Of a stretch of DNA of 64,000 bases, positions 38,583 through 55,388 are shown piece by piece. The position numbers were made by a program, and so were the translations under genes. The notes below the pieces were generated by a model. That model ran no database searches. It saw only the letters and a list, made by a program, of their open reading frames with translations, and was not told where the DNA came from. The number at the start of each line of letters is the position of its first letter. The first letter of the stretch is position 1. Origin of the DNA: Sphingomonas koreensis (GTDB lineage: Bacteria > Pseudomonadota > Alphaproteobacteria > Sphingomonadales > Sphingomonadaceae); the NCBI RefSeq assembly GCF_002797435.1, contig NZ_PGEN01000001.1, positions 3,036,501 through 3,100,500 on the forward strand. The letters are read 5' to 3'.

Positions 38583-38592
38583 TGACACCGGT
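38583..38592. promoter_or_regulatory. TGACACCGGT operator-like site, upstream of the receptor operon
   Basis: One of five exact copies of this ten-base motif, all in or beside gaps before pectin genes. It is half of the perfect palindrome TGACACCGGTGTCA expected for a LacI-family protein, with a degenerate second half. It lies 29 bases from the receptor start codon. Confidence 0.65.
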
Positions 38593-38737
38593 AGCTATTC
38601 GATGCCTGCTGCCGTCCGACAGCGGGCAAAATGACTTTCGGGAGGGGTGCCTTGCCGCGATTCGCGGCGAAATCAGCGCGATCCTCCCGTTTTCGCCGCG
38701 TTATCGCGGTCTCGCACCGGTAATTTCCGCTTGAGAA

Positions 38738-38747
38738 ACCGGTGTCA
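38738..38747. promoter_or_regulatory. TGACACCGGT operator-like site (reverse orientation), upstream of the ThuA-cupin/PL10 operon
   Basis: ACCGGTGTCA, the complement of the motif, sits about 100 bases before the ThuA-cupin start and about 145 bases from the site at 38583. Two sites in one divergent spacer could allow looping. A weaker CACCGGT lies at 38716. Confidence 0.65.
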
Positions 38748-38845
38748 TTGGCACATTGTTCGCGAAAGGCGCCCATGTCAAGAAGGTGCTTGGAAGGATG
38801 GGTATGGGGTTCCGCCCCCGATCGACGGCGAGAGAGGGATGCCGG

Positions 38846-39943
38846 ATGCGTGTGATTCTGCTGATTCTAGGGGCGCTGCTGCTCGCCGCTGCGACTGCGC
38901 CGCCGCCCGCGATCCTGATCTTCAGCCACACCACCGGGTACCGGCATGCCTCGATCGAGCCTGCGGCCATAGCGATCGGTGCAGCGGCGAAAGCCGCGGG
39001 CTATGCCGTCACCACGAGCGAGGATCCGGCGCTGTTCGACGACGCCGCGAAGCTCCGGGGCTTCAAGGCGATCGTGCTCCTGAACACGACGACGCGGCCG
39101 AAGGAGAATGCGTCGGGCGAATGGCTGATCGGCGCGCGGCGCGATGCGCTCCAGGCCTTCGTGCGGGGCGGCGGTGGCATCGTCGGCATCCATGGCGCTG
39201 CGGATTCGCACTATAACTGGGACTGGTACGGCCGGATGATCGGCGCGCGCTTCGCACGGCACCCGTCGGGGACGCCCAGGGGCAAGCTGACGCGCGCCGG
39301 GCTGGATCACCCGTCGATCCGTGCCCTGTCCGAATCGTTCGAAGCGGTCGACGAATGGTATTGGTTCGACGATCTCGATCCGCGGCTGCGTCCGCTGCTG
39401 CTGCTCCACCCCGCATCGATCGGTGAGAAGGGCGCCAACCCGCGTCCGATCGCCTGGGCGCACAGCTTCGAGGGCGGACGCGTCTTCTACACTGCGCTCG
39501 GCCACACGCCCGAGGCGTGGTCGGATCCGCGGATCGTCGGCCATGTCATGGGCGGGCTCGACTGGACGATCGGCCGCGGCGCACGGCCGATGGTGGTGAT
39601 CGACGAGGCCGCCAAGCAGCGCGACGAACCGCCGCCGCACGGCAGGATCGGGATGAGCACCGCATGGCGCATCACTGACGGCGTGCCCGGCCGGATGATG
39701 GAATATCGCAAGCGCGCGCTGCATCCCGGCGCGGCGATCGGTGTCCATCCGATCGACCATGACGAAGTCTATGCCGTCGTCTCCGGCGAGGGCGAGGTCG
39801 TCTCCGACGGCAAGACCGCGAAGCTCAGGCCCGGCATGACCGCCTATCTCTACGCCGGCGCACAGGTCGGTATCCGCCAGACCGGCAAGGCGCCGCTCGT
39901 TCTCATCATCAGCTATCCGCTCGAGAAGGTTCCCCAGCAATGA
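38846..39943 (+). CDS. ThuA-like domain / cupin domain fusion, exported
   Basis: A 365-residue protein with a signal peptide (about 18 residues). Residues about 22-245 are a ThuA-like glutamine-amidotransferase-fold domain (ILIFSHTTGYRHASI, GGGGIVGIHGAADSHYNW, WAHSFEGGRVFYTALGH). Residues about 270-365 form a cupin (HPIDHDEVYAVVSGEGEV). ThuA-like proteins are linked to sugar use, and some act on disaccharides; the cupin resembles sugar-binding or isomerase-like cupins. The fusion is unusual to me. The ribosome site AGAGAGGGA precedes the ATG, and the stop overlaps the PL10 start (ATGA), so it is coupled to the lyase. Confidence 0.82.
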   Translation: MRVILLILGALLLAAATAPPPAILIFSHTTGYRHASIEPAAIAIGAAAKAAGYAVTTSEDPALFDDAAKLRGFKAIVLLNTTTRPKENASGEWLIGARRDALQAFVRGGGGIVGIHGAADSHYNWDWYGRMIGARFARHPSGTPRGKLTRAGLDHPSIRALSESFEAVDEWYWFDDLDPRLRPLLLLHPASIGEKGANPRPIAWAHSFEGGRVFYTALGHTPEAWSDPRIVGHVMGGLDWTIGRGARPMVVIDEAAKQRDEPPPHGRIGMSTAWRITDGVPGRMMEYRKRALHPGAAIGVHPIDHDEVYAVVSGEGEVVSDGKTAKLRPGMTAYLYAGAQVGIRQTGKAPLVLIISYPLEKVPQQ

Positions 39944-41523
39944 TCTCACGCCGCACCCTGCTTGCCGCCTCGGCGACGCTTGCGTTCACCCCCGGCACCG
40001 CCGTGTCGCGGACCGTGTCGAAGGGTGAGATCGCCGAGACGATGAAGCGGGCGACGCGCTTCATGGTCGAGAAGCTGGCGTATCGCGGCGGCTATCTCTG
40101 GTCCTATCTGCCTGATCGCTCGCGCGTGTGGGGCGAACTCGAAGCGTACAAGACGATGGTCTGGGTGCAGCCGCCGGGCACCGCGACGATGGGGCATCTC
40201 TATCTCGACGCCTATAGCGCCACCGGCGACGACTATTATTATCAGGCCGCGGCCAAGGCGGCCGAGGCGCTGATTGCGGGCCAGCTCCCCAAGGGCGGCT
40301 GGAACTATTTCATCGATTTTGGCGGACCGGCTTCCACGAAGCGCTGGTACGACACGATCGGCAGAAACGCCTGGCGCATGGAGGAATTCCAGCACCATTG
40401 GGGCAACGCCACCTTCGACGATCAGGGCACGGGCGAGGCGATCCGACTGCTGATCCGCATCTATGCCGAGAAGCGCGAGAAGCGGTTCAAGGCGGGTCTC
40501 GACAAGGCGATCGGCTTCATCCTCGCAAGCCAGCTTCCCAATGGCGGCTGGCCCCAGCGCTGGCCCCGCGTGCCCGATGGCGGGCTGCACGGTCACCCGG
40601 ACTATACCGGCCTCATCACCTTCAACGACGGCGTCATCCACGACAATATCGATGTGCTGCTGACCTATCATCAGGCGATCGGCGACCCGCGCATCTTGCC
40701 TGCGATCGAACGTGCGATGGATATCTACCTCAAGACCCAGCAGCCCGCACCGCAGGCCGGCTGGGGCCTGCAGCATACGATGGACCTGAAGCCCGCGGGC
40801 GCCCGCACCTACGAGCCCAGGGCGCTGGTCACGCATGCGACAGCGTCGAACATCGAACAGCTGCTGAACTTCTACAAGCTGACCGGGAATGCCAAATATC
40901 TGGCGCCCGTCCCCGCTGCTCTCGACTGGCTCGAAAGCGTCCGTCTTCCTGCCGAATTGCAGCAGGGCGGCCGACAGTTCCCCACTTTTGTCGAGATCGG
41001 AACCAACAAGCCGCTCTGGGTGCATCGCCGCGGATCGAATGTCGTCAACGGCGACTATTATGCCGACGACAATCCGGAGCACACGATCGGCCATTACAAT
41101 GCCCGCCGCTCGATCGACACCGCCAGGCTGCGGCGCGACTATGAGACGTTGCGCGCGACGCCGGGCGGGGTGGCGTCGAAGGAGTCGCCGCTGCTCAAGG
41201 GGCGTCAGCCGCTGGCGAAATACTGGCTCGCCGCGGTCGAGCCTGGATCGGACAAGAATGTCGCCGGCGGCAAGGATGCCAGGGCGCTGGTCGGAACGCT
41301 CAATGCGGAGGGCTGGTGGCCGACCCAGCTCAAGGCAATGAGCCATCCCTATACCGGCCCGGGGGCGAAGACCGTGGCCGCGGGCGATTTCCGCTCCACC
41401 GATGTGGGCGACATCACGGATACTTCGCCCTTCGATGTCGAGAACGGCCCGATCGGCATCTCGACAGGTACCTATATAGATCATATGATCACACTAATAG
41501 GCGCCCTGCGGAGCGCCTCATGA
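39940..41523 (+). CDS. pectate lyase, polysaccharide lyase family 10
   Basis: A 527-residue protein with an export leader (SRRTLLAASATLAFTPG). The helical-toroid PL10 pattern is visible: RAVLWVQPPG-like region near residue 70, LPKGGWNYFIDFGG, LPNGGWPQRWPR and GHPDYTGLITFNDGVIHDNI. PL10 enzymes cleave polygalacturonate by beta-elimination, giving 4,5-unsaturated oligogalacturonides in need of KduI/KduD downstream. The length is larger than many PL10 catalytic modules (about 330), and the C-terminal 130 residues could be a separate cap. It is coupled to the ThuA-cupin gene and followed by DUF4861. Confidence 0.88.
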   Translation: MISRRTLLAASATLAFTPGTAVSRTVSKGEIAETMKRATRFMVEKLAYRGGYLWSYLPDRSRVWGELEAYKTMVWVQPPGTATMGHLYLDAYSATGDDYYYQAAAKAAEALIAGQLPKGGWNYFIDFGGPASTKRWYDTIGRNAWRMEEFQHHWGNATFDDQGTGEAIRLLIRIYAEKREKRFKAGLDKAIGFILASQLPNGGWPQRWPRVPDGGLHGHPDYTGLITFNDGVIHDNIDVLLTYHQAIGDPRILPAIERAMDIYLKTQQPAPQAGWGLQHTMDLKPAGARTYEPRALVTHATASNIEQLLNFYKLTGNAKYLAPVPAALDWLESVRLPAELQQGGRQFPTFVEIGTNKPLWVHRRGSNVVNGDYYADDNPEHTIGHYNARRSIDTARLRRDYETLRATPGGVASKESPLLKGRQPLAKYWLAAVEPGSDKNVAGGKDARALVGTLNAEGWWPTQLKAMSHPYTGPGAKTVAAGDFRSTDVGDITDTSPFDVENGPIGISTGTYIDHMITLIGALRSAS

Positions 41524-41536
41524 CATAGGAGGTGGC

Positions 41537-42916
41537 ATGCCCGGGCGGGTCGTTTGCGTAGCGTTGCTGGCTGTGGCCGGCGCAACTCCAGCTCAGGCCG
41601 CCACGTCCAGCGATCCATGGTATGTCCGCGAGGACTTCAAGCCCGTGCGGCGCATCGCGATCCGGATCGCCAACGACCTCGATCAGCCGGTGCGCGCGAC
41701 GCCGGTGGTGATCACTCCGGCGCAGATCCCCGAGCTAGCGGGGATGCACGAGCTGACTGTGACGCTGGTCGATCCCAGGGGCACGCCGCGTCCGGTCCCC
41801 ACCAAGGAACAGCTCGCGGTGATGGGGCCGCATGGAATCCGGCAGGAGGCGAACGGCCGCCAGCTCGACCTGCAGATGGACGATCTCGACAAGGACGGCG
41901 TGTGGGACGAGCTGTTCTTCCAGGCCGATCTCAAGCCGCGCGAGACGCGGACCTATTATCTCTATCTCGGCTTCCACCAGCGCGGCTGGAACCCGCACGG
42001 CGCGGCGGCCACGATCGGCAGTTATTCGCGGCACATGGTGCCCTTCTGGGAATCGGGCAATGTCGGCTGGAAGCTGTGGTTCCCCGACAGCGCCGACGTG
42101 TACGGCAAGCGCAGGAACATCCTCGTCGCGCCGCAGATCCTGACCAACAACTGGGACGGCTATGCCGTGGCCTATGTCGATCCGGCCTATGGTTCGGACA
42201 TCATGTCGGTCGACGACAGCTTCGGCGGCGGCGGGATCGGGCTGTTCGAGACGCCGGGCAGCGACCATGTCTCGCGCCCGCGCTTCTCGCCCAATGCCGA
42301 TGCGGCCGAGCGCTGGAACACCAGCCAGCTCAAGGACACGCGCTACGCGTTCGAGGTGATCGTCAACGGCCCGCTGCGCGCGATGGTGCGGATCAAGACG
42401 ATGAACTGGAACACCGGCAAGGGCCGCTATGCGCTCGAACAGGTGTACACCGCCTATGCCAATCACAATTATGCGACGGCGAAGGTGCAGTTCCATCAGT
42501 GGCAGCCGGGTGGGAAGGGCGTGCAGTTCGCCGCCGGCATCCGCAAGAAGGCGGGCGAGACGCTCGGGCTACGCCAGGGCGGCGTGGTGGTGACCACTGC
42601 GCCCGAGGCGATCCGCAATCCCGACGATACGGACTCGACGCAAAACGCGCTGACCGTCGGTTATGCCGGGATCGGGCTAGTGGTGAAGGACAGCTATGGC
42701 GCGAAGCATGTCGCGGTGGCGCAGCAGCAGGGCAATGAGCTGTTCCGCTTCCCGCAGCGGGCCGACGGCAAGTACGAATACATGCTCGCCGCCGGCTGGA
42801 GCGAGGGTGAGGTGCTCAAGACCGCCGCCGAGTTCCGCGACTATGTGGTCGGCGTGGCCAAGGAATATAACACGCCCGCGCGGCTGGCGGGGTTCGAGGT
42901 GCAGGTGAAAGAGTAA
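41537..42916 (+). CDS. DUF4861 family exported protein
   Basis: A 459-residue protein with a signal peptide ending near TPAQAA. It matches the DUF4861 pattern as I know it (LPDGRELPVQ-like VDPRGTPRPVPTK, DLDKDGVWDELFFQADL, WESGNVGWKLWFPDSADVYGKR). The family is frequent in polysaccharide-utilisation loci of Bacteroidetes and sphingomonads; its activity is not known to me. A strong ribosome site TAGGAGGTG precedes the ATG. It is third in the operon after the pectate lyase, so a role on released unsaturated oligogalacturonides or on side chains is likely. Confidence 0.75.
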   Translation: MPGRVVCVALLAVAGATPAQAATSSDPWYVREDFKPVRRIAIRIANDLDQPVRATPVVITPAQIPELAGMHELTVTLVDPRGTPRPVPTKEQLAVMGPHGIRQEANGRQLDLQMDDLDKDGVWDELFFQADLKPRETRTYYLYLGFHQRGWNPHGAAATIGSYSRHMVPFWESGNVGWKLWFPDSADVYGKRRNILVAPQILTNNWDGYAVAYVDPAYGSDIMSVDDSFGGGGIGLFETPGSDHVSRPRFSPNADAAERWNTSQLKDTRYAFEVIVNGPLRAMVRIKTMNWNTGKGRYALEQVYTAYANHNYATAKVQFHQWQPGGKGVQFAAGIRKKAGETLGLRQGGVVVTTAPEAIRNPDDTDSTQNALTVGYAGIGLVVKDSYGAKHVAVAQQQGNELFRFPQRADGKYEYMLAAGWSEGEVLKTAAEFRDYVVGVAKEYNTPARLAGFEVQVKE

Positions 42917-42931
42917 GGCAGCTACTGAACG

Positions 42932-44479
42932 CTACGTCCCCGGCTGCACATACGGCACCCGCGCGAACAGCTCGCGCTGCCATTGGCGCGGATCGTTCGC
43001 CACGCGGCTCCGCGCGTCGAAGAGCATCGTCTGGCGCTGGGGCAGGGTATGCCTCGGCCACACCGGCACGCCCGCGCCGTTGGGGTCGCCCTTCGCGGCG
43101 AGATTGACGAACGCGCGCATCATGGTGGCCGACGCGGCCTGCGCAGCGGGGCCGGTGCCGGAGACGGTGCCCTCCGCCCCGATCGTGCCGAACACCAGCG
43201 GGATGTCATGCGTATGCGCGGCGCCGCGCTCCGGTTCGACCGGCGAGGTGAAGTCGAGCTGATAGACCCAGGCGGGGACGCCGGCCCTGGCGCGCTCCTC
43301 CGCCTCGATCACCTGCCCGCGCCAGCTGCGTCCCGCGGTGGTCGCGGCGTAGAAGACCTCGGAGGGCAACCAGCCCGGGAACTGTTTGCGATACTCGGCC
43401 ACCACCCATTCGGGGTGCGCGTCGATCCGCAAACGGGGCGCGATCCGCTCGGCGAGGTTGCTCCAGTCGAGCGTGCGCACCAGTTCGGACCTGGGATCGT
43501 CGAAGGCCCGCGTCTCATCGCGCGTGTTGCCGAGGATCAGCGGAATGCCGTTGCCCAGCGGATTGGCGTCGGGCCAGAAGGGGTGGCGGGTCAGCCACTT
43601 CATGTCGAGCACCGGACCCATATAGACCCCGCCGCCCAGGATCGGATCCTCGGCGCGCAGGCCGTCGATCAGCTTCTCGACCGGCATGTCGACCAGATCG
43701 CCGGGCCTGGCCTTGAGCCGGTCGAGCAGCGCCTGCGCGCGGCGCGTGGCGTTGAGCGGCCCGCTTACCGTCACCTGCTGGCCGGACATCGTCGCCGCGC
43801 GGTGAAACAGGCCCTTGGCGGCTGGCATTCCCATCAGCGTCGCGATCTTGGCGCCGCCGCCCGACTGGCCGAAGACCATGACGCGGCGCGGATCGCCGCC
43901 GAACCCGGCGATATTGTCGCGCACCCATTGCAGCGCCAGGATCAGGTCGAGCTGGCCATTGTTGCCGCTGTCGGGAAACCGCGGGTCGAGCCGGGCGAGG
44001 TAGAGATAGCCGAGCGCGTTGAGCCGGTGGTTGACGGTGACGACGACCACATCGCCCTTCTCCGCCAGCGTCGCCCCGAACACCTGCGGCTCGATCACCG
44101 TGCCGTTCGAATAGGCCCCGCCGTGGAAATAGACCATCACCGGGCGGCGGGCCTTGGCGTTGGCTTCCGGCGTCCAGACGTTGAGGAACAGGCAGTCCTC
44201 ATGCTGGTTGGCGATTCGGCTCGACTGCGGGCAGCTTGCGGCGAAGCTGGTGGCGCTCAGCGTGTCGCGGCTGGCTTCAGGCGCGGTGGCGGGACGGAAG
44301 CGGGCACGGCTGGTATCGTTGCCATAGCGGATGCCGAGAAAGGCCTGAACGCTGCCCTCGCGCTTGCCCCGCCAGCGCCCGGTCTTGCCGGTTGCGACCG
44401 GGTCGGCCTGCGCGAACGCGGCAGGGGGCAGGACGGTCAGTGCCGCGCTTGCCCCCAACAGCGTCCGCCGGTCGATCAC
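42932..44479 (-). CDS. type B carboxylesterase, exported
   Basis: A 515-residue protein starting with GTG at 44479 behind GAAGAGG, eleven bases after the kdgK stop. An export leader (DRRTLLGASAALTVLPPAAFAQ) is followed by a type-B carboxylesterase fold: EDCLFLNVWTP, YFHGGAYSNG oxyanion motif, the nucleophile GQSGGGAK, and a C-terminal His in HTHDIP. Longer in-frame starts lie inside kdgK. As the last gene of the uronate operon, it may remove methyl, acetyl or phenolic esters from pectin fragments. The family is broad. Confidence 0.8.
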   Translation of the reverse strand: MIDRRTLLGASAALTVLPPAAFAQADPVATGKTGRWRGKREGSVQAFLGIRYGNDTSRARFRPATAPEASRDTLSATSFAASCPQSSRIANQHEDCLFLNVWTPEANAKARRPVMVYFHGGAYSNGTVIEPQVFGATLAEKGDVVVVTVNHRLNALGYLYLARLDPRFPDSGNNGQLDLILALQWVRDNIAGFGGDPRRVMVFGQSGGGAKIATLMGMPAAKGLFHRAATMSGQQVTVSGPLNATRRAQALLDRLKARPGDLVDMPVEKLIDGLRAEDPILGGGVYMGPVLDMKWLTRHPFWPDANPLGNGIPLILGNTRDETRAFDDPRSELVRTLDWSNLAERIAPRLRIDAHPEWVVAEYRKQFPGWLPSEVFYAATTAGRSWRGQVIEAEERARAGVPAWVYQLDFTSPVEPERGAAHTHDIPLVFGTIGAEGTVSGTGPAAQAASATMMRAFVNLAAKGDPNGAGVPVWPRHTLPQRQTMLFDARSRVANDPRQWQRELFARVPYVQPGT

Positions 44480-44489
44480 CGCCGCCTCT

Positions 44490-45500
44490 TCATCGACGCA
44501 CGTCCAGCCCGCCTTCGAGGAAAGCGTCGATGTCCGCCTGGCGGAACAGGCTGGCGTCGCCCGGGAGCGAATGTTTGAGGCAGGTGAGCGCGAGGCCCGA
44601 GGCGACGGTGCCTTCCAGATCCTGACCCGACAGCACGCCATGCAGGATGCCCGCGGCATAGGCGTCGCCGCCGCCGATACGGTCGATGATCCCGGCGACC
44701 ACGACTTCTTCGGTCTGGTAGCCGCGCTCGGGCGTGTCGACGCGCGCCGCGATGCGGTGCCGGTCGGCATCGTCGACATGGCGCGCGGTCGAGGCGATGC
44801 GCTTCAAATTGGGGAAGGCGGCGAAGGCAGCTTCGGCGGCCTCGCGGCGGCGGTCGGCGCCATCGCCGGAGAAGGTCTTGCCGAGCAGCAGCGAGACGTC
44901 GCGATGGTTGCCGAACATCGTGTCGGCAAGGCTGACCAGTTCGGTCAGCACGGCGCGGGGATCGCTGTCCCACGCTTCCCACAGCCTTGCGCGGTAATTG
45001 CCGTCGAAGCTGATCGCAACGCCCAGTTCCTTCGCGGCGCGCGCGGCCCGAAGCGCGGCCTCAGCCGTCGCCGGGCCGAGCGCGGGGGTGATGCCCGAGA
45101 GATGCAGCATGCTCGCGCCGCTCAGCAGCGTCTTCCAGTCGAACGCGTCGGCCGGGGCGTTGGCGAAGGCCGAATCCGCGCGGTCATAGACGATGTCCGA
45201 CGCGCGCAGCCCGGCGCCCTGCGTCAGGAAGTAGAGGCCCATGCGGCCGTCGCGATATTGCACACCGCTGGTGTCTGCGCCCTGCGATCGCACGAACTGC
45301 ACCGCGGCGCGGCCCAGCGCATTGTCGGGCACCGCGCTGACCATCGATACCGAATGGCCCAGATTGGCAAGGCCGATGCCGACATTGGCCTCGGCACCGC
45401 CCACGACCACGTCCAGCCGCGGCGTCTGCATCAGCAGCTCGCGCCCCGGAGCGGTCAGGCGGAGCAGCAATTCCCCGAAACAGACGATACGGCCGGCCAT
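44490..45500 (-). CDS. kdgK: 2-keto-3-deoxygluconate kinase (PfkB family)
   Basis: A 336-residue sugar kinase with PfkB signatures: GGAEANVGIGLANLG near residue 34 and DRIGGGDAYAAGILHG near residue 270, where the last Asp is the catalytic base (the usual DTxGAGD is altered to DRIGGGD). It phosphorylates KDG to KDPG, the meeting point of the two uronate branches. The ribosome site GAGGAG precedes the ATG. The KDPG aldolase that must follow is not encoded in this window. Confidence 0.88.
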   Translation of the reverse strand: MAGRIVCFGELLLRLTAPGRELLMQTPRLDVVVGGAEANVGIGLANLGHSVSMVSAVPDNALGRAAVQFVRSQGADTSGVQYRDGRMGLYFLTQGAGLRASDIVYDRADSAFANAPADAFDWKTLLSGASMLHLSGITPALGPATAEAALRAARAAKELGVAISFDGNYRARLWEAWDSDPRAVLTELVSLADTMFGNHRDVSLLLGKTFSGDGADRRREAAEAAFAAFPNLKRIASTARHVDDADRHRIAARVDTPERGYQTEEVVVAGIIDRIGGGDAYAAGILHGVLSGQDLEGTVASGLALTCLKHSLPGDASLFRQADIDAFLEGGLDVRR

Positions 45501-45525
45501 GATGTCTCCTCGCTTGTCCTGGCGT

Positions 45526-46281
45526 TCAGCGCGCCAGCCAGCCGCCGTCTACCGCGAGGATGTGTCCCTGCACATAGTCCGATGCGCGCGAGGCGAGGAA
45601 AACCGCCGCGCCGCCCAGATCTGCCGGGTCGCCCCAGCGGCCCGCCGGGATGCGCTCCATGATCTGGCGGTTGCGCGTCTCGTCCTTTTGCAGTGCATCG
45701 GTGTTGTTGGTGGCGATATAGCCGGGCGCGATCGCGTTCACCGTGATGCCCTTGCTCGCCCATTCATTGGCCAGCAGCTTGGTCAGGCCGCCGACGCCGC
45801 TCTTCGACGCGGTGTAGCTCGGCACGCGGATGCCGCCCTGAAAGGTCAGCATCGATGCGATGTTGATGATCTTGCCGCCGCCATTCGCAATCATGTGGCG
45901 CGCCGCCGCCTGGCACAGGAAGAACACCGACTTCAAATTGGTGTCCATCACCGCGTCCCAGTCTTCCTCGGTGAACTCGACCGAATCCGCACGGCGGATG
46001 ATGCCGGCATTGTTGACGAGGATGTCGAGGCCGCCGAGCTTCTCCACAGTCTCGTCCACAACCCTTTGCACAGGCTCGATCGTGGACAGGTCGGCGCTGA
46101 CGATCTCCGCCTTGCGGCCGAGCGCGCGGACCTTTTCCACCGTTTCGGTCGCGGCGGAGCGGCCGACCGCGGCGATGTCCGCGCCCGCCTGTGCCAGCGC
46201 GAGCGCGATGCCCTGGCCGATGCCGGTGTTCGCGCCGGTGACGACCGCGACGCGGCCGGTAAGATCGAAGGGATTGGTCAT
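45526..46281 (-). CDS. kduD: 2-deoxy-D-gluconate 3-dehydrogenase / 2,5-diketo-3-deoxygluconate reductase
   Basis: A 251-residue short-chain dehydrogenase: TGANTGIGQG cofactor motif, NNAGI, Ser in NIASMLTFQGG, YTASKSG catalytic Tyr/Lys, and the KduD-typical FQGGIRVPSY and YIATNNTDAL segments. It reduces 2,5-diketo-3-deoxygluconate to KDG, the step after KduI or DhuI. The ribosome site CGGAG precedes the ATG. It lies between kduI and kdgK with gaps of about 20 bases. Confidence 0.92.
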   Translation of the reverse strand: MTNPFDLTGRVAVVTGANTGIGQGIALALAQAGADIAAVGRSAATETVEKVRALGRKAEIVSADLSTIEPVQRVVDETVEKLGGLDILVNNAGIIRRADSVEFTEEDWDAVMDTNLKSVFFLCQAAARHMIANGGGKIINIASMLTFQGGIRVPSYTASKSGVGGLTKLLANEWASKGITVNAIAPGYIATNNTDALQKDETRNRQIMERIPAGRWGDPADLGGAAVFLASRASDYVQGHILAVDGGWLAR

Positions 46282-46301
46282 GGAAAGCTCCGGGAGTGGC
46301 G

Positions 46302-47144: not shown

Positions 47145-47180
47145 GGCGGCTCCCTTTCAGTCTGCCGGCGGCGCGTGGGG

Positions 47181-47834: not shown

Positions 47835-47870
47835 GTCGGATTCCTTATGCGGGGTTCGGTGGAGCGGGGG

Positions 47871-49310
47871 TCAGGCGGCCTTTACGGCGGTAAGGGGCTG
47901 GTCGAGCTTGTAGGCTTTGCGGACGAGCCCGTTGGTCAGCTCATAGGCGAGTTCCGCGGCCTCCCAGTCCTGCATCCGCCCCTCGGCGACGAGGCGGGCA
48001 AGGAAGGCGCAGTCGACGCGGCGCGCGACATCGTGCCGCGCGGGGATCGAAAAGAAGGCGCGGGTGTCGTCGTTGAAGCCGACGGTGTTGTAGAAGCCCG
48101 CGGTCTCGGTGGTCATCTCGCGGAAGCGGCGCATGCCCTCCGGCGAATCATGGAACCACCAGCTCGGCCCGAGCCGCAGGCAGGGGTAATGCCCCGCCAG
48201 CGGCGCCAGCTCGCGGGCATAGGTGCTCTCGTCGAGGGTGAAGAGGATCACCGTCAGGCCGGGCTCGTTGCCGACCACGTCGAGCATCGGCTTGAGCGCA
48301 TGGACATAGTCCGTCCGCGTCGGGATGTCGGCGCCCTTGTCGCGGCCATGGCTGTGGAACAGCTTGGCATTGTGGTTGCGGCACGCGCCCGGATGGATCT
48401 GCATCGTCATGCCATCCTCGACGCTCATCTTCGCCATCTCGGTCAGCATCTGCGCGCGGAACAGTTCGGCGTCCGCCGCGTCCCACTTGCCCGACATGAT
48501 CCGCCCGAACAGCGCCTCGCTCTCGGCGGTCGACAGGTTGGCGGTCTGCGCGGTGGCAAAGCCATGGTCGGTCGCGGTCGCGCCCGCGATGCGGAAGTCG
48601 GCGCGGCGCTTGCGATGCGCGGCGAGATAGCCCTTCCAGCTGTGCACATCCTCGCCGGTCAGTCCGGCGAACGCCTCGAGCGCGCCCTTGAACGCCTCGT
48701 GCTCGACATCGATCACCGAATCGGGGCGATAGGTCGTCACGACCCGGCCGCCCCAGCCCGACCGCCGGATCGCGGCGTGATGCTCGAGCGGATCGTCGGC
48801 GCCTTCGGTGGTGGCGAGGAAGTCGATCTTGAACCGCTCGAACAGCGCGCGCGGGCGATAGGCGGGCGTCGCCAGCGCTTCGTTGATCGTGTCGTAATAA
48901 TGATCGGCGGTGCCGCTATCGAGCAGCCGTTCGATCCCGAACACCTCGGCGAAGACATGGTCGAGCCACATGCGCGACGGCGTGCCGCGGAACAGGTGGT
49001 AGTTGCTCGCAAACAGCCGCCACGCCGCGCGCGGATCGGTCGCCGGCACGCCGTCGATCCGCGGCACGCGCAGCGCGTCGAGGTCCACGCCCTGCGAATA
49101 GAGCATGCGGAAGACATAGTGGTCGGGTGCGAGGAACAGCTCGGTCGCATTCTCCCACGCATCGTCGGTCGCGAACCACGAAGGATCGGTGTGCCCGTGC
49201 GGGCTCACGATCGGGAGGCCGGCGATCTCCTTGTACAGGTCGCACGCAATGGCGCGGGTAGTGGGTTCGGCCGGAAACAGCCGGTCCGGATCGAGTGCCA
49301 GGGGACGCAC
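47871..49310 (-). CDS. uxaC: glucuronate/galacturonate isomerase
   Basis: About 479 residues, the usual UxaC length. The amidohydrolase-like metal motif SPHGHTD is near residue 40, with LDHVFAEVFGI and GACRNHNAKLFHSHGRDKG following. It converts D-galacturonate to tagaturonate, the first step for saturated monomer. I set the start at GTG 49310, which has AGAGGA at eight-base spacing; an adjacent in-frame GTG at 49316 is too close to that site. An operator-like motif is 38 bases upstream. It is the first gene of the six-gene minus-strand operon ending with the carboxylesterase. Confidence 0.92.
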   Translation of the reverse strand: MRPLALDPDRLFPAEPTTRAIACDLYKEIAGLPIVSPHGHTDPSWFATDDAWENATELFLAPDHYVFRMLYSQGVDLDALRVPRIDGVPATDPRAAWRLFASNYHLFRGTPSRMWLDHVFAEVFGIERLLDSGTADHYYDTINEALATPAYRPRALFERFKIDFLATTEGADDPLEHHAAIRRSGWGGRVVTTYRPDSVIDVEHEAFKGALEAFAGLTGEDVHSWKGYLAAHRKRRADFRIAGATATDHGFATAQTANLSTAESEALFGRIMSGKWDAADAELFRAQMLTEMAKMSVEDGMTMQIHPGACRNHNAKLFHSHGRDKGADIPTRTDYVHALKPMLDVVGNEPGLTVILFTLDESTYARELAPLAGHYPCLRLGPSWWFHDSPEGMRRFREMTTETAGFYNTVGFNDDTRAFFSIPARHDVARRVDCAFLARLVAEGRMQDWEAAELAYELTNGLVRKAYKLDQPLTAVKAA

Positions 49311-49347
49311 TTTCACATTCCTCTTACATGATGTGTCCAACCCGGTA

Positions 49348-49357
49348 ACCGGTGTCA
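49348..49357. promoter_or_regulatory. TGACACCGGT operator-like site (reverse orientation), upstream of uxaC
   Basis: ACCGGTGTCA in the 282-base gap before uxaC, 38 bases from its start. It is the only copy before the catabolic minus-strand operon. The rest of the gap (49358-49592) holds no gene that I can support. Confidence 0.65.
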
Positions 49358-49592
49358 GACCGGATTTCAACCGAAGTCTCGAATGCATGTTCTTGTGCCC
49401 CGCACGCACGTCGGGCCGCTGCGCGGTCAGTCTGACCCCGGACCATGCCGATCGCAAGCCGTGTCCTCGCCGCTATCGGACTGCACGTGCGGATTCGGGG
49501 ATGGGTCACGCGTGGCGCGTCGTCGGCGCACTTGCGCTTAAGTCACTATAAGTCCAACCTATATCGCTTATCGGCATAGTGGAAGGTGAAGT

Positions 49593-50609
49593 GTGGGTTT
49601 GTCGACAGCGGACTCGCTCGAACGGGCGTCGAGCCATATCTCGTTCCAGCAACTTGCCGACGCCATGCCGCAAATGGTCTGGTCGACGCTGCCCGACGGC
49701 TCGCACGATTACTATAATGCGCAATGGTACGCGTTCACCGGCGTCCCCGAGGGGTCGACCGATGGAGACGGGTGGAACGGCATGTTCCACGCGGACGATC
49801 AGGAGCGGGCGTGGGGGCGGTGGCGGCACTGCCTGGAAACCGGCGAACCCTATGAGATCGAATACCGGTTGCGGCACCATAGCGGCGTCTATCGCTGGAC
49901 GCTGGGTCGCGCGCTTCCGATTCGCGGCGAGGATGGCACGATCGTCCGCTGGGTCGGCACCTGCACCGACATCGACGATCAGAAGCGCATCGCCGAGCAG
50001 AACCAGATCCTCAGTCGCGAGCTCAGCCACCGGATCAAGAACATCTTCGCGGTGGTCAACGGGCTGATCGGGCTGTCGGCGCGCCAGTTTCCCGGGATGA
50101 CGGGCTTCGCGCAAAAGCTGCAGGAGCGGGTGGCGGCGCTGGGCCGGGCGCATGAGTATGTGCGTCCGCACAGCGAGGAAAGCTTGCCGCACCCCGGCGC
50201 GCCGACGCTCAAGGAGCTCTTCGCCCGGCTCCTCAGCCCTTATCCGGCGCTGGACGAAGGCCGGCTGGTCATCGAAGGCGACGATCATGCTGTGGACGAT
50301 CGCGCGGCGACCCCGCTCGGCCTGGTCTTTCACGAACTGGCGACCAATGCCTCGAAATATGGCGCGCTGGTGACGCCCGAGGGCCGGGTCCGGCTTTCGG
50401 TGCGCGTCGAGGGCGATCAGGTGGAGTTGCGCTGGGACGAGGAGGGCGGACCGGGAATAGCACAGGCGCCCGATCTGTCTGGCTTTGGAACCCGATTGAC
50501 CGAGATCAGCATCACGCGCCAGCTGGGCGGCACGCTGGAGCGCGATTGGGCGCGCGATGGCCTGCGCGTGCGAATCCTCTTGCCGGCCCGCGCGCTGAGC
50601 CGCGATTGA
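49593..50609 (+). CDS. HWE-family sensor histidine kinase with PAS domain
   Basis: A 338-residue soluble protein. Residues about 15-130 are a PAS domain with PAC end (MPQMVWSTLPDGSHDYYN, WVGTCTDIDDQKR). The HWE kinase core follows: ELSHRIKN with phosphoacceptor His146, HELATNASKYG for ATP binding, and RWDEEGGP containing the W-x-E of the HWE signature. The GTG start has GGAAGGTGA upstream. Kinases of this type are common in alphaproteobacterial light or general-stress control. It faces a lone receiver-domain gene only nine bases away. Confidence 0.9.
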   Translation: MGLSTADSLERASSHISFQQLADAMPQMVWSTLPDGSHDYYNAQWYAFTGVPEGSTDGDGWNGMFHADDQERAWGRWRHCLETGEPYEIEYRLRHHSGVYRWTLGRALPIRGEDGTIVRWVGTCTDIDDQKRIAEQNQILSRELSHRIKNIFAVVNGLIGLSARQFPGMTGFAQKLQERVAALGRAHEYVRPHSEESLPHPGAPTLKELFARLLSPYPALDEGRLVIEGDDHAVDDRAATPLGLVFHELATNASKYGALVTPEGRVRLSVRVEGDQVELRWDEEGGPGIAQAPDLSGFGTRLTEISITRQLGGTLERDWARDGLRVRILLPARALSRD

Positions 50610-50618
50610 GCCTGCGGC

Positions 50619-51035
50619 CTATCCGAAGCAGCGAAGCGTGGGCGGTGCTTCCGCCGCTTCGCCTCTCAGGCGGCGCAGCGCAAAAGCGACGGCCGAAATG
50701 AGGCTCGCCTTGTCGGTGGGCTTGGTGAGAACGCCGATCGTGCCCGAGATCCCGTCGCCCAACAGGCGCGGGTTGGCGGTGATGAAAAGAACCCCGGCCT
50801 TTTGCTCATTGGCCAGGCGTTCGCCGATCTGGGGACCGGTCAGGCCGTCGCGCAGGTTGAGATCGACCAGCGCGAGATCGATCTTGCGATCGGCATAGGC
50901 GAGCGTACCGGGAAGGTCTGCGGCGACCCCGATGACGTCATAGCCTTCGTCCTCGAGAATGCTTTCCATCTCGAGGGCAACCAACATCTCGTCTTCGACA
51001 ATCAGAATTGACGCTGTCATACCGCAAAAATCCAC
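50619..51035 (-). CDS. single-domain response regulator
   Basis: About 138 residues, receiver domain only: acidic pair in LIVEDE, phosphoacceptor Asp in ALVDLNLRDG, Thr/Ser in FITANP and Lys in LTKPTDK. There is no output domain. The GTG at 51035 has AAGGAG four bases upstream; ATG at 51020 is an alternative without a ribosome site. It is convergent with the HWE kinase gene and is a likely phosphate acceptor of it. Such lone receivers often relay or buffer phosphate in general-stress signalling. Confidence 0.85.
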   Translation of the reverse strand: MDFCGMTASILIVEDEMLVALEMESILEDEGYDVIGVAADLPGTLAYADRKIDLALVDLNLRDGLTGPQIGERLANEQKAGVLFITANPRLLGDGISGTIGVLTKPTDKASLISAVAFALRRLRGEAAEAPPTLRCFG

Positions 51036-51090
51036 TCAACTCCTTGATGGTTCCCTAATCGGCGGCCGGGATCTTATCGCGAGGCACCGG

Positions 51091-52110
51091 CTATTCAACC
51101 GGCGGCGCGACCGAAGCCCTGCGGATCAGCGTCGAGACGAACAGCGATTCCCCGCTTTCCTCATCCTCGCCATCGCCGATCAGCTTCAGTGCCGCCGCCC
51201 GCGCCATCGTCGCGATCGGCCAGCGCACCGTGGTGAGCGGCGGCCACAGATAGGAAGCGATCGAGGTGTCGTCGAAGCCGACGATCGACAGGTCGCGCGG
51301 CACGTCCAGCCCGCGCTGACGCGCGGTGTGGAGGACGCCCGCCGCCATCGCGTCGTTCGAACAGAACACCGCGGTCGGCCGCGGCGAGAGGTCGAGCAGG
51401 CGCTCGGCCGCGCGCATCCCGGATTCGAACGTATAGTCGCCCTGCGCGATCAGCGTGCGCTGGATCGGGATATCGGCATCGTCGAGCGCGGCTTCATAGC
51501 CCTGGCTGCGCTCGAGCGCCGAGCGGAAGCCGTGCGGGCCGAGGACCAGGCCGATGCGCCTGTGCCCGTTCTCGACCAGATGCGCGACCGCGCCCCGCAC
51601 GACTTCGCGGTCGTTCGACGCGACCATATGCTCGGGATCGTCGAAGCTCGCCGACCCCATGCGGACATAGCGCGCGCCGATCTCCTGGCAGAGCGCGGCG
51701 AGCGAATCATTCTCGCTGATCGGCGGCAGGATCATCACGCCGTACGGGCGCTGGCGCTCGAGGAAGCGGCGGATATCGTCGAGCATCGTCGTCGATCCGC
51801 GGTCGACCGGGTGGACGATCAGCTCGAACTCGGTGTCGCGCAGCACTTCGAGCAGCCCCTGCTGGACGTTGAGCACCATATGCGGGTTGGGGTTGTCGTG
51901 GATCAGCCCGATCAGGAAGTTGCGGCGCAGCGCCAGCGCGCGCGCCTGCGGGTTGGGAACGTACCCGATCTCGGCGATCACCTTCTCCACCCGCTCGCGC
52001 GTCTCCTCGTTGAGAAGGGGGGAGCGGTTGATCACGCGGCTGACGGTTTTCTTGGAGACCCCCGCCAGTCGCGCTACATCGTTGATCGTCGCCTGCGCGC
52101 TTTTCTTCAT
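51091..52110 (-). CDS. LacI-family transcriptional repressor of pectin/uronate genes (putative)
   Basis: A 339-residue protein with N-terminal helix-turn-helix and hinge (TINDVARLAGVSKKTVSRVIN, then NPQARALALRR) and a periplasmic-binding-like effector domain. The minor-groove hinge and CG-centred operator fit the motif TGACACCGGT seen at five places around it. Its ligand is probably KDG, galacturonate or a related acid. The gene has no ribosome site: the inverted repeat of a mobile-like element ends five bases from its ATG, so its expression may be unusual. Confidence 0.88.
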   Translation of the reverse strand: MKKSAQATINDVARLAGVSKKTVSRVINRSPLLNEETRERVEKVIAEIGYVPNPQARALALRRNFLIGLIHDNPNPHMVLNVQQGLLEVLRDTEFELIVHPVDRGSTTMLDDIRRFLERQRPYGVMILPPISENDSLAALCQEIGARYVRMGSASFDDPEHMVASNDREVVRGAVAHLVENGHRRIGLVLGPHGFRSALERSQGYEAALDDADIPIQRTLIAQGDYTFESGMRAAERLLDLSPRPTAVFCSNDAMAAGVLHTARQRGLDVPRDLSIVGFDDTSIASYLWPPLTTVRWPIATMARAAALKLIGDGEDEESGESLFVSTLIRRASVAPPVE

Positions 52111-52115
52111 GGATA

Positions 52116-52383
52116 GGGTCCAAACTTAACTAGGACGTGGAGCATGATGGCGCTCTGCGGGTTCGTGGCGAGGAGTGGCGCCGAAGGCGGGCCGGTTGGC
52201 CCGTCGAGGGGCTGCGACGCGGCCACGGATCTGCAGAGCGCCACCCCGGAGGGGCAGGGCGCAAAAGCGCCCCGGACTGCGTTGGCCGCTCGTCAGGTAG
52301 GCACCGCTACCTGCTTTCGCGGCCGCCTTGCCGGGGAGCTTTTGCGCCTCTGTCATGCCCACGTCCTAGTTGAGTTTGGACCC
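52116..52383. mobile_element. 268-bp non-coding element with 25-bp terminal inverted repeats (MITE-like or structured RNA)
   Basis: The ends 52116-52140 (beginning GGGTCCAAACTT) and 52359-52383 (its complement) match at 24 of 25 positions, and the match continues about eight bases inward with one gap. Inside, more pairs occur: GGCGCTCTGC (52149) with GCAGAGCGCC (52233), GGGCGC/GCGCCC around AAAA (52257-52272), and CAGGTAG/CTACCTG (52294-52313). No transposase and no convincing reading frame are present, and no target duplication is visible. It fills most of the lacI-uxaA spacer. It fits a small non-autonomous transposable element, or else a gene for a folded RNA. Confidence 0.6.
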
Positions 52384-52434
52384 TCGTGCATAGCGTGCAT
52401 CCGGGGCCTAGCCAATCGGGCCGTGCTGGCGTAC

Positions 52435-52444
52435 TGACACCGGT
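52435..52444. promoter_or_regulatory. TGACACCGGT operator-like site, directly before uxaA
   Basis: The motif ends seven bases before the uxaA ATG at 52451. No Shine-Dalgarno sequence is present in that space, so a bound repressor would cover the start region itself, and the transcript may be nearly leaderless. Confidence 0.65.
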
Positions 52445-52450
52445 AGTCGT

Positions 52451-53926
52451 ATGATGAATCCTGCCGCTCTTCGAATCCACGGCGCCGATACCGTCGCCAC
52501 CGCGCTGCGCAATCTGGTGGCGGGGGAGGTAGTGCTTGGCGTCACCCTCAGCGACGCGATCCCGCGCGCGCACAAATTCGCGCTGGTCGCGCACGCGCCG
52601 GGCGATCCGGTGCTCAAATTCGGCTTCCCGATCGGGCGGGCGACCGCGGCGATCGCCCCGGGCGATCATGTCCATGTCCATAATGTCGCGACCGCGCTGG
52701 CGGGCGAGGCAGCCTATGGGGGCGGCGCCGGCGCCGAGCGCGCGCCGGCGGCGGCATCGGCCATCAAGTGGCGCGGCTATCCGCGCGCCGATGGCCGGGC
52801 GGGCACGCGCAACGAGATCTGGATACTGCCCACCGTCGGCTGCGTCGGCCGCACCGCACAGAAAATCGCGGTCAAGGCCGAAGCCCTGCTCCCCGCTGGC
52901 GTCGACGGCGTCCACGCCTTCGCTCACCCGTTCGGCTGCTCGCAATTGAGCGATGATCTCGACGGCACGCGCAACATCCTCTCCGCGCTCGCGCAGCATC
53001 CCAATGCCGGCGGCGTGCTCCTCGTCGGGCTCGGCTGCGAATCGAACCAGCTTTCGGCGCTGCTCGAAACCCTGCCAGAGGATGTGCGCATGCGCGTCCG
53101 CACCGTCGGCGCGCAATCCTCGCCTGACGAGATCGGCGAGGGGGTCGGGAAGGTGCTCGAGCTGGCGCAGCTCGCCGCGACCGCGCAGCGCGAAGAGATG
53201 GGCCTCGACCGGCTGGTGCTGGGGGTCAAATGCGGCGGGTCGGATGGCCTCTCCGGCCTCACCGCCAACCCGCTGGTCGGCATCATGGCCGATCGCATCA
53301 CCGACGCCGGCGGATCGGCGATCCTGACCGAGATTCCCGAGATCTTCGGCGCCGAGCAATTGCTGATGGCGCGCGCCGCCGATGCCGATACGTTCGATGC
53401 GATCGGCGCGCTGGTGAACCGCTTCAAACGCTACTTCATCGACCATGGCGAGCCGGTGTCGGAGAACCCGTCGCCCGGCAACATCGCGGGCGGCATCACC
53501 ACGCTGGAGGAGAAGAGCCTCGGCGCGGTGCAGAAGGGTGGTCAGGCAATCGTCACTGACGTGATCGACTATGGCGATCGCGTGAAGCGTACCGGGCTGA
53601 CCCTGCTCGAGGCGCCGGGCAACGACGCCGTCTCCTCGACCGCGCTGTCGGCCGCGGGGGCGACGGTGATCCTGTTCACGACCGGTCGGGGCACGCCCCT
53701 GGGCTTCCCCGCGCCGACGCTCAAGATCGCGTCCAACTCCGATCTCGCCGCGCGGAAACCGGGCTGGATCGACTTCGACGCCGGGCAGGTGCTGACCGAC
53801 GGCATGGACGTCGCCGCCGATGCCCTGCTCGCGCGTATCGCCGCGATCGCATCGGGCGAGGAAGCCGCCGCCGAACGCAATGGCGAGCGTGAAATTGCAA
53901 TCTGGAAGCGAGGCGTGACCCTGTGA
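52451..53926 (+). CDS. uxaA: altronate dehydratase
   Basis: A 491-residue protein containing both parts of UxaA: an N-terminal SAF-type domain (to about residue 80) and the large C-terminal domain beginning with GYPRADGRAGTRNEIWI, with the conserved FGCSQLSDD, GLGCESNQ and KCGGSDGLSG motifs (iron and catalytic region). It dehydrates altronate to KDG. ATG 52451 or the adjacent ATG 52454 is used; neither has a ribosome site. Its TGA overlaps the GTG of the next gene. Confidence 0.92.
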   Translation: MMNPAALRIHGADTVATALRNLVAGEVVLGVTLSDAIPRAHKFALVAHAPGDPVLKFGFPIGRATAAIAPGDHVHVHNVATALAGEAAYGGGAGAERAPAAASAIKWRGYPRADGRAGTRNEIWILPTVGCVGRTAQKIAVKAEALLPAGVDGVHAFAHPFGCSQLSDDLDGTRNILSALAQHPNAGGVLLVGLGCESNQLSALLETLPEDVRMRVRTVGAQSSPDEIGEGVGKVLELAQLAATAQREEMGLDRLVLGVKCGGSDGLSGLTANPLVGIMADRITDAGGSAILTEIPEIFGAEQLLMARAADADTFDAIGALVNRFKRYFIDHGEPVSENPSPGNIAGGITTLEEKSLGAVQKGGQAIVTDVIDYGDRVKRTGLTLLEAPGNDAVSSTALSAAGATVILFTTGRGTPLGFPAPTLKIASNSDLAARKPGWIDFDAGQVLTDGMDVAADALLARIAAIASGEEAAAERNGEREIAIWKRGVTL

Positions 53927-55362
53927 GCCGATTGACGCTGGAAACGCTGCGGGATGTGCCCGCGGCGATCGTGAAGCCTGCCTATGACCCCGCCACGGTC
54001 TCGACCGGCGTGGTCCATTTCGGGCCGGGCGCCTTCCACCGCGCGCATCAGGCGAGCTATTTCGATACCGTGCTGGCGAACGATCCGCGCTGGGGCATCG
54101 CCGCGGTCTCGCTGCGGTCGGGCGGCACGGTCGAGGCGTTGGCTGCGCAGGACGGGCTTTACACGCTGGCCGTGCTCGACCGCGAACCGTCGATGCGCGT
54201 GATCGGCGCGCACCGGACCTGGATCGGGCCGGGCGGCGGCGCGCAGGTTTCGGCGCTGCTGGCCAGGCCCGAGGTTCGCATCGTCACCTCGACCGTGACC
54301 GAGAAGGGCTATTGCCTCGCCGGCGACGGCACCCTCGACATGAGCCACCCGGATATCGTCGCGGACCTTCAGGGCGGCGAGCCCCGCAGCTTCGTCGGCT
54401 GGCTGGTCCAGGGTCTCGCGGCGCGGCGCGCGGCCGGTGCCGATCCCTTCATGGTGCTGTGCTGCGACAATCTCTCGGGCAATGGCGGCAAGCTGCGCGC
54501 GGCGACGATCGCGCTGGCGGCCGCACGCGACGCCGATCTGGCCAAGTGGATCGCCGATACCGCCGCCTTCCCCGACACGATGGTCGATTCGATCACGCCC
54601 GCCAGCGACGATGCGCTCTATGCCAGGGTCGCGGCGGAACTCGGCGTCGAAGACCGCGCGACGGTGCAGCGTGAGGCTTTCACTCAATGGGTGATCGGCC
54701 CCTACACGCTGGCGGACGGCCCGGATCTTGCCGGTGCGGGCGCGACGCTGACCAGCGATGTCGGCGGCTATGAGCGCGCCAAGCTGCGCATCCTCAATGG
54801 CCTGCATTCCAGCCTTGCCTATCTCGGCCTCGCCATGGGGCTGGAGACGGTGGCGGACGCGATGGGGCAGGCCCAGCTCGCAGCCTTTGCCGAGCGGCTG
54901 GCGCTGCAGGATATCGTCCCGGTGCTCGATCCGGTCGCGGGCCTCGATCACGCCGGATATACTCAGGCTGTGCTTGAGCGTTTCCGTAATCCCGCGATCC
55001 GGCATCTGCTCTCGCAGATCGCCTGGGATGGTTCGCAGAAGCTGCCCTATCGCCTGCTCGACACCACCGCTGCGGCGATCCGCGCGGGGCGGCCGGTCGA
55101 TCGCCTCGCGGTGCCGGTCGCGGCGTGGATGCACTTCGTCGCGCGCCGGGCCGCGGCGGGGGAGGCGATCACCGATCCGCTCGCCGCGCCGCTCGCCGAT
55201 GCTGCGGCTGGCGCCTCGCCCGCGCAACTCGTCGATCGGCTCTTCGCCTTCGAGGCGGTGTTCCGGCCCGAAATCGCCGGTCACGCCGCCTATCGTGCGG
55301 CAGTGACCGCCGGGGTCGAGGCCCTTGCCGAAGGGCGTGTCGAGGCGCTGCTGGCGCGTTGA
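53923..55362 (+). CDS. uxaB: mannitol dehydrogenase family oxidoreductase, tagaturonate/fructuronate reductase
   Basis: A 479-residue protein of the polyol-specific long-chain dehydrogenase family: VHFGPGAFHRAHQASYFD at the N-terminal nucleotide-binding fold, VSTVTEKGY-like TSTVTEKGYC, CCDNLSGNG, and KLRILNGLHSSLAYLG in the catalytic region. Both UxaB (tagaturonate reductase) and UxuB (fructuronate reductase) belong here. With uxaC and uxaA adjacent, and altronate the needed intermediate, tagaturonate reductase is favoured, though the sequence looks closer to the UxuB/MtlK branch. The GTG start overlaps the uxaA stop. Confidence 0.82.
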   Translation: MSRLTLETLRDVPAAIVKPAYDPATVSTGVVHFGPGAFHRAHQASYFDTVLANDPRWGIAAVSLRSGGTVEALAAQDGLYTLAVLDREPSMRVIGAHRTWIGPGGGAQVSALLARPEVRIVTSTVTEKGYCLAGDGTLDMSHPDIVADLQGGEPRSFVGWLVQGLAARRAAGADPFMVLCCDNLSGNGGKLRAATIALAAARDADLAKWIADTAAFPDTMVDSITPASDDALYARVAAELGVEDRATVQREAFTQWVIGPYTLADGPDLAGAGATLTSDVGGYERAKLRILNGLHSSLAYLGLAMGLETVADAMGQAQLAAFAERLALQDIVPVLDPVAGLDHAGYTQAVLERFRNPAIRHLLSQIAWDGSQKLPYRLLDTTAAAIRAGRPVDRLAVPVAAWMHFVARRAAAGEAITDPLAAPLADAAAGASPAQLVDRLFAFEAVFRPEIAGHAAYRAAVTAGVEALAEGRVEALLAR

Positions 55363-55378
55363 TTGCGGCTCTTGTCAA

Positions 55379-55388
55379 TGACACCGGT
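55379..55388. promoter_or_regulatory. TGACACCGGT operator-like site, before the hydratase/transporter genes
   Basis: Located in the 66-base gap after the uxaB-like gene and 41 bases before the next start. It suggests that the last two genes have their own repressed promoter in addition to read-through from uxaA. Confidence 0.6.

Follow-up and report, generated by a model that had tools for sequence, protein, structure and literature searches.

A ten-base LacI-type motif in the pectin island of Sphingomonas koreensis as the probable operator of a dispersed regulon

Introduction

Sphingomonads are common plant-associated bacteria, and a 64-kb stretch of the Sphingomonas koreensis genome (the window; positions 3036501-3100500 of a single 4.40-Mb contig) holds an island of pectin and uronate genes in which the ten-base motif TGACACCGGT precedes five transcription units. 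This raises the question of whether these units answer to one regulator, and whether that regulator is the LacI-family protein encoded in the middle of the island. From the analysis below it is very likely that a single LacI-family repressor, the product of the gene at 51091-52110 on the minus strand, uses the five sites as its operators, and that its regulon is dispersed over the genome.

Results

Five exact copies precede pectin and uronate genes

Within the window, TGACACCGGT occurs exactly five times, at 38583(+), 38738(-), 49348(-), 52435(+) and 55379(+), while dinucleotide shuffles of the window contained 0.09 copies on average and at most 1. A first-pass annotation made from the window alone had listed these same copies and placed each before a pectin or uronate unit, and the gene identities hold; its remark that there was no exact copy elsewhere is correct for the window but fails for the genome, whose 4.40 Mb contain 14. 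With one mismatch allowed, the window count rose to 10 against 2.5 expected, and none of the five additional copies is in the pectin island, as all have positions below 27 kb. The five exact copies, numbered here as putative operators, are as follows:

38583..38592, plus strand, operator 1: exact copy ~29 base pairs (bp) before the receptor ATG at 38554; heads the TonB-receptor/esterase/GH43 operon
38738..38747, minus strand, operator 2: exact copy ~99 bp before the ThuA ATG at 38846; heads the ThuA/PL10/DUF4861 operon
49348..49357, minus strand, operator 3: exact copy ~38 bp before the uxaC GTG at 49310; heads the uxaC operon
52435..52444, plus strand, operator 4: exact copy ~7 bp before the uxaA ATG at 52451 and ~325 bp from the lacI ATG; between the divergent lacI and uxaA-uxaB
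55379..55388, plus strand, operator 5: exact copy ~41 bp before the hydratase ATG at 55429; heads the hydratase-like gene and the gene of a major facilitator superfamily (MFS) transporter

Measured to inferred start codons, the sites thus lie ~7 to 99 bp upstream, which is the promoter position expected of a LacI-family regulon. A similar pair of sites, matching operators 1 and 2, is present between the receptor and ThuA genes of a relative (G025, locus L216). At operator 4 we also noted a gap of just six bases between the site and the uxaA ATG (52435-52454 in all), which is too tight for a ribosome-binding site; either the uxaA transcript is leaderless or the real start codon lies further downstream.

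The ten-mer proved to belong to a longer near-palindrome centred on CG (about wTGACACCGGTwwCaw), in which it forms the core TGACACC-GGT and is followed by a looser second half. The first-pass annotation, which had taken the ten-mer for half of a CG-centred palindrome of LacI type, was therefore right in kind: the form is even and CG-centred, as in LacI-type operators. Across the lacI sites of 17 relatives and the five window sites, the second half is variable yet patterned (TTTCC, TTACC, TATCC, TAGTC). For the genus survey we used the extended pattern ATGACACCGGTNNC, which misses uxaC-type sites because it begins with A, where these sites have C. As a search motif, TGNNACCGGTNNCA with one mismatch was dropped (232 strand-counted matches versus 290 for its backwards control).

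Several copies read TTGACACCGG, as might be expected if the motif were a core-promoter element, that is, a TTGACA -35 box with a shared start region. However, only some copies have a T before TGACA, and what the copies have in common is an ACCGGT centre plus a C three bases further on; moreover, they can face either way with respect to the gene, and they track one regulator gene. A core-promoter element is therefore extremely improbable.

A sister palindrome, TGTAACCGGTTAC(A/T), was seen in the same genome at 2409373 and 2417504 (L023, L040), with one copy within ~90 bp upstream of the helix-turn-helix (HTH)-coding start of another LacI gene. These sites possibly serve a paralogue with shifted specificity.

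The motif travels with the island LacI gene

The candidate regulator is encoded between operators 3 and 4:

51091..52110, minus strand, LacI-family regulator P0001, probable repressor for operators 1-5: PF00356 at 72.3 bits (cut-off 27) and Peripla_BP_3 (PF13377) at 133 bits

P0001 thus has both the HTH and the periplasmic-binding-protein-like sensor domain of the LacI family, and LacI-family regulators are among the best of its 68 PDB matches at 1e-10 or better. It fits no named LacI equivalog (GalR, RbsR, PurR, CcpA, GntR, IdnR and others), as all 19 NCBIfam matches fell below their cut-offs, and the Pfam scan found no IclR-type domain in it. Wherever the search pattern found the HTH, which was in 48 of 57 orthologue loci, the HTH sequence KKTVSRVIN was identical; the pattern itself fixes part of this sequence, but not KK or IN.

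The named-genome scan contained 18 loci with a match to lacI, and an exact copy of the ten-mer stood 65-147 bp before lacI in all 17 that were Sphingomonas (78-95% identity; a 30% Microbacteriaceae relative, L065, was excluded from this count), so that the regulator gene has a site of its own. We then considered a genus sample of 81 genomes, 45 of which have a P0001 orthologue (best match at least 66%, while the best matches listed for the others reach at most 45%). The pattern ATGACACCGGTNNC matched 105 times in 45 of the 81 genomes, versus 1 match of the backwards control in all 81. It was present in 40 of the 45 genomes with the orthologue (own genome included) versus 5 of the 36 without (98 versus 7 matches), a co-occurrence with a Fisher p of 4.5e-12 before any correction for kinship.

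Upstream scans covered the 30 best-matching loci for each gene (of 71 genomes with pckA, 66 with a manD match, 68 with uxaC and 45 with the lacI orthologue). With the own locus excluded, a site (at most one mismatch, 300 bp) preceded lacI in 26 of 29 genus loci, which overlap partly with the genomes of the 17 named ones (22 exact, 4 with one mismatch); one of these loci (G011, L083) ends at a contig end, where the site listed is the uxaC one, and its true lacI site is in L210. The order-level comparison covered 197 genomes, 45 of them matching at 1e-100 and all of these from the same genus or family. Here the site lay within 300 bp of lacI in 23 of 27 loci (20 exact, 3 with one mismatch); 15 of the 27 were from outside the genus, and 12 of these sites were exact, across 10 genera. 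Of the uxaC promoters, 12 of 16 from orthologue-bearing genomes (own included) had the core (at most one mismatch, 300 bp), versus 0 of 14 from genomes without the orthologue, where the uxaC genes may belong to other operons. The random-piece background for such a site was ~4%, drawn from loci that hold real sites (L015-L017).

All 99 ATGACACCGGTNNC matches outside the own genome, 92 in orthologue-bearing genomes and 7 in others (3 of them in G020), were fetched and their surroundings compared with 32 test proteins. A test-protein homologue (at least 50% identity) began, by extrapolation, within ~400 bp of 56 of the 92 sites and of 0 of the 7. The homologues were the pectin receptor (20), hydratase (17), LacI (12), PL10 (6), lyase-island receptor (4), GH43 (4), UxaA (2), ThuA (2), UxaB (1) and ManD (1), where one site may count twice. 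Ten sites with a good second half and no such homologue were inspected. In L162 the neighbour is a GH28 pectinase, in L165 a protein that narrowly misses the Pfam cut-off for pectate lyase and in L192 a GDSL esterase, and LamG-domain proteins adjoin the sites of L134, L137 and L163; the remaining four (L130, L159, L172, L194) had nothing telling beside them.

Other LacI-type palindromes were seen in genomes without the LacI orthologue: TTGTGCCAGCGCTGGCACAA in a uxaC promoter (L271), and TTGATACCGCTATCAA in two manD promoters (L227, L231).

The genome encodes 11 LacI proteins above the Pfam cut-off, and one of them, P0002, which is 41% identical to P0001, adjoins an exact copy of the motif at 1543224. 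This could mean that P0002, or yet another LacI protein, is the main binder. On the other hand, many genomes without a P0001 orthologue have LacI homologues of ~40% identity, yet 31 of 36 are without a motif match, and P0001 orthologues from 10 other genera have exact sites upstream of their genes. Judged by this survey of P0001 orthologues, a different main binder is very unlikely. By co-occurrence, sites at orthologous promoters and the site before lacI itself, the island LacI gene is very probably the partner of the ten-mer sites. The same evidence supports two ideas of the first-pass annotation, namely that the protein from the middle of the island is this partner and that the units form one regulon with a LacI-type operator. 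It had also said that a motif absent from orthologous promoters would speak against a regulon; the motif was there, at uxaC (12/16), lacI (17/17) and the lyase-island receptor (10/10; see below).

Several observations weigh against P0001 as the common regulator. The exact core served as the search key, so that its invariance in the site lists is by construction and the second half alone is free evidence. Five of the 45 orthologue-bearing genomes are without the strict motif, 7 of 56 non-own lacI loci have no site at up to one mismatch inside 300 bp, and 4 of the 16 uxaC genes in orthologue-bearing genomes are without a site. Test-protein homologues were absent from the surroundings of 24 of the 92 fetched sites; 1 further site fell within a matched gene, and 11 had just a weaker homologue close by, in most cases a remote TonB receptor, and count for little. 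A pckA site is present in just 8 of 24 orthologue-bearing genomes, and the manD site is confined to G000 and G040 of 30 loci, with a degenerate version in G021. Finally, sites, orthologous promoters and co-occurrence were computed, while physical binding, repression as opposed to activation, and the inducer are inferred from them.

An element between lacI and its operator

In the own genome an intervening element puts ~325 bp between the lacI ATG and the nearest ten-mer:

52115..52384, no strand assigned, non-coding element of ~270 bp, bounded by inverted repeats, that separates lacI from the operator: ends AGGGTCCAAACT...AACTAGGACGTGG inverted

This element has one copy in the own genome and an 82% similar stretch elsewhere in G025, and the 65-147 bp between site and lacI in the 17 named relatives leave no room for it. 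It resembles a miniature transposable element, which would have inserted here. At such a distance from the operator, lacI autoregulation may be lost in this genome, a further point against the simple scheme, and the displaced operator offers a natural test of whether lacI autoregulation matters.

Genes of the pectin island

The receptor operon and the ThuA/PL10 operon, which is completed by a DUF4861 protein, consist of:

35684..38554, minus strand, TonB-dependent receptor (target): PF00593, PF07715, TIGR01782
34641-35687, minus strand, esterase of the receptor operon
33024-34625, minus strand, GH43 protein of the receptor operon
38846..39943, plus strand, ThuA-domain protein (target): PF06283
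39940..41523, plus strand, PL10-type pectate lyase (target): PF09492

The Pfam and NCBIfam check identified UxaC, an RpiB-like isomerase, KduI, KduD and a PfkB kinase in the uxaC unit, which is followed here by the units of operators 4 and 5:

47871..49310, minus strand, uxaC (target): PF02614
46302..47144, minus strand, kduI, downstream of uxaC: NF002091 at 379 bits (cut-off 250)
45526..46281, minus strand, kduD: TIGR01832 at 411 bits (cut-off 339)
44490..45500, minus strand, PfkB-family kinase, probable 2-keto-3-deoxygluconate (KDG) kinase: PF00294; KDG/KDGal kinase models match below their cut-offs
52451..53926, plus strand, uxaA (target): GD_AH_C, GD_AH_second, SAF
53923..55362, plus strand, uxaB/uxuB-type reductase (target): Mannitol_dh domains
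55429..56220, plus strand, hydratase-like gene (target): weak 2-keto-4-pentenoate hydratase matches, all below cut-off, and no Pfam match
56261..57559, plus strand, MFS transporter, ExuT-like (target): MFS_1

Copies outside the island

The whole genome contains 14 exact copies of TGACACCGGT, versus 2 for the backwards pattern: the five in the window, four just before other genes and five that are apparently coding. The last group (L002, L003, L007, L008, L014) lies inside long open frames, judged by open frames alone, and looks like chance occurrences. Many copies in coding DNA had been named in the first-pass annotation as a sign against the motif, and 5 of 14 is a weak instance of this. The four distant promoter copies stand before pckA (L015), a TonB receptor beside the LacI gene of P0002 (L016), and the receptor and manD of a second island with polysaccharide-lyase genes (the lyase island, L017). 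The regulon is therefore better described as dispersed, and the local regulon proposed in the first-pass annotation was rejected on the genome scan and the lyase-island receptor sites in orthologues.

Conservation differed among these four promoters. All 10 orthologues of the lyase-island receptor that were found carry the site as an exact copy, each of them in a genome that also has the lacI orthologue, and this unit therefore looks real (at least 10 orthologues at 1e-200, own included, with at most 10 candidates scored per genome; the gene of G021 is in two pieces). For pckA, a site (at most one mismatch, 200 bp) was found in 8 of the 24 orthologue-bearing genomes (own included) versus 0 of 6 others, and all eight sites lie 88-116 bp upstream of the aligned start. 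As a conserved regulon member manD was not supported, several relatives carrying other palindromes there, such as TTGATACCGCTATCAA, and the site at the second TonB receptor is without conservation evidence.

These differences bear on whether the P0001 regulon comprises pectin genes only, the copies at pckA, manD and the second receptor being chance occurrences or sites of other regulators. Such a restriction would agree with the 1.9% of random 300-bp pieces of the own genome that contain an exact copy (a pool that included real sites), with the rarity of manD sites in relatives, with the lack of conservation evidence at the second receptor and with the five coding-like copies. Set against this are the recurrence of the pckA site 88-116 bp upstream, in orthologue-bearing genomes alone, and the conservation of the site in all lyase-island receptor orthologues found, and we consider a pectin-only regulon a real though minor possibility. 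In our reading, the dispersed regulon would include the lyase-island receptor promoter, probably also pckA, and possibly manD and the second TonB receptor.

The lyase island may act on alginate or on a glucuronate polymer: its lyases, with hits to PF05426 and to two PDB structures that bear the name alginate lyase (3nfv and 8bdq), favour the former, and the latter is favoured by a GH88 protein nearest to the unsaturated rhamnoglycuronyl hydrolase 4ce7 and by an encoded ManD (NF043051 above cut-off). Between the receptor and GH88 genes, a 620-aa protein (L017:10580-12442) without a Pfam, NCBIfam or PDB match possibly represents an unrecognised enzyme family.

Near three distant LacI sites we observed repeated TTGTAGGACAA-like sequences (L016:7174-7220, L017:10530-10610, L017:13645-13660), two of which share their island with a GntR/FCD regulator gene (L017:15762-16604); they are possibly the operator of a second regulator. 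The own pckA promoter (L015:7995-8050) and those of relatives carry extra CG-centred repeats (CGACAACGTTG), and in some relatives TGACAACGTTTAC occupies the place of the P0001 site before pckA. Perhaps another LacI regulator of gluconeogenesis uses these sequences.

Discussion

A working scheme

In the mechanism that we propose, a P0001 dimer would bind the CG-centred near-palindrome just upstream of the pectin and uronate genes and block transcription near its start, so that receptor, lyase and catabolic genes stay off. A uronate intermediate from breakdown would then bind P0001 and release it from the DNA. That four of the five sites are <50 bp from the likely start codon is expected for such roadblock repression, and most LacI proteins bind without ligand (PMC4052901). 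Sites alone give no sign of regulation, and PurR-type members bind with ligand (PMC4052901), so that P0001 could instead be an activator or a corepressor-dependent repressor; on balance we find this unlikely and retain the inducible repressor.

As to the inducer, KDG is the end point of the galacturonate (UxaC, UxaB, UxaA), unsaturated-uronate (KduI, KduD) and mannonate (ManD) routes. Because all three yield it, KDG would be the simplest shared inducer, and KDG or its phosphate is our guess, at somewhat short of even chances. Growth on such acids needs gluconeogenesis, and pckA would therefore fit the regulon. More tentatively still, P0001 may be a LacI master regulator of uronic-acid catabolism that is common across the sphingomonad family and senses KDG, that in some lineages links pectin, a second uronic-acid polymer and, via pckA, gluconeogenesis, and that is an independent and non-homologous counterpart of KdgR of the enterobacteria.

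For pectin use in sphingomonads, the analysis names a candidate regulator, operator and set of targets that can be tested. It predicts that pckA, the entry gene of gluconeogenesis, and the second lyase island obey the same switch, and one effector assay would decide whether a single metabolite coordinates pectin genes, lyase island and pckA.

Comparison with known systems

KdgR is an IclR-family protein, whereas P0001 belongs to the LacI family, and the likeness between the two is therefore one of analogy and not of homology. KdgR regulons include the gluconeogenic gene ppsA. The text of PMC8688573 has 0 matches for ppsA; it describes how in Dickeya the pectin genes are under one repressor, KdgR, and are freed by pectin-derived KDG, which is the same working scheme as proposed here for P0001 (PMC8688573). 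Loci of Xanthomonas and Caulobacter, including a probable pectin locus, likewise join a TonB receptor, degradative enzymes and a regulator; unlike here, the sugar-related palindrome in the passages compared here is a xylose one, with no such pectin motif among them (PMC1790865).

Among the literature matches listed (titles and abstract starts, with RegPrecise pages outside the search), none concerned the ten-mer or a Sphingomonas pectin LacI regulator, and the main text of PMC4052901 has 0 words beginning with 'Sphingomon'. The LacI-family carbohydrate regulons in RegPrecise have even, CG-centred palindromes, mostly 30-140 bp before the start codon, with sugar-acid catabolism among their targets and frequent autoregulation (PMC4052901). 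P0001 resembles them in palindrome form, promoter position, sugar-acid targets and own-gene site. The regulators named there are UxaR/UxuR/KdgR of Bacteroides and GluR of Caulobacter (PMC4052901). Altogether, the sphingomonad system appears to be a further LacI-family catabolic regulon of a kind already known, unusually clear and wider than first thought.

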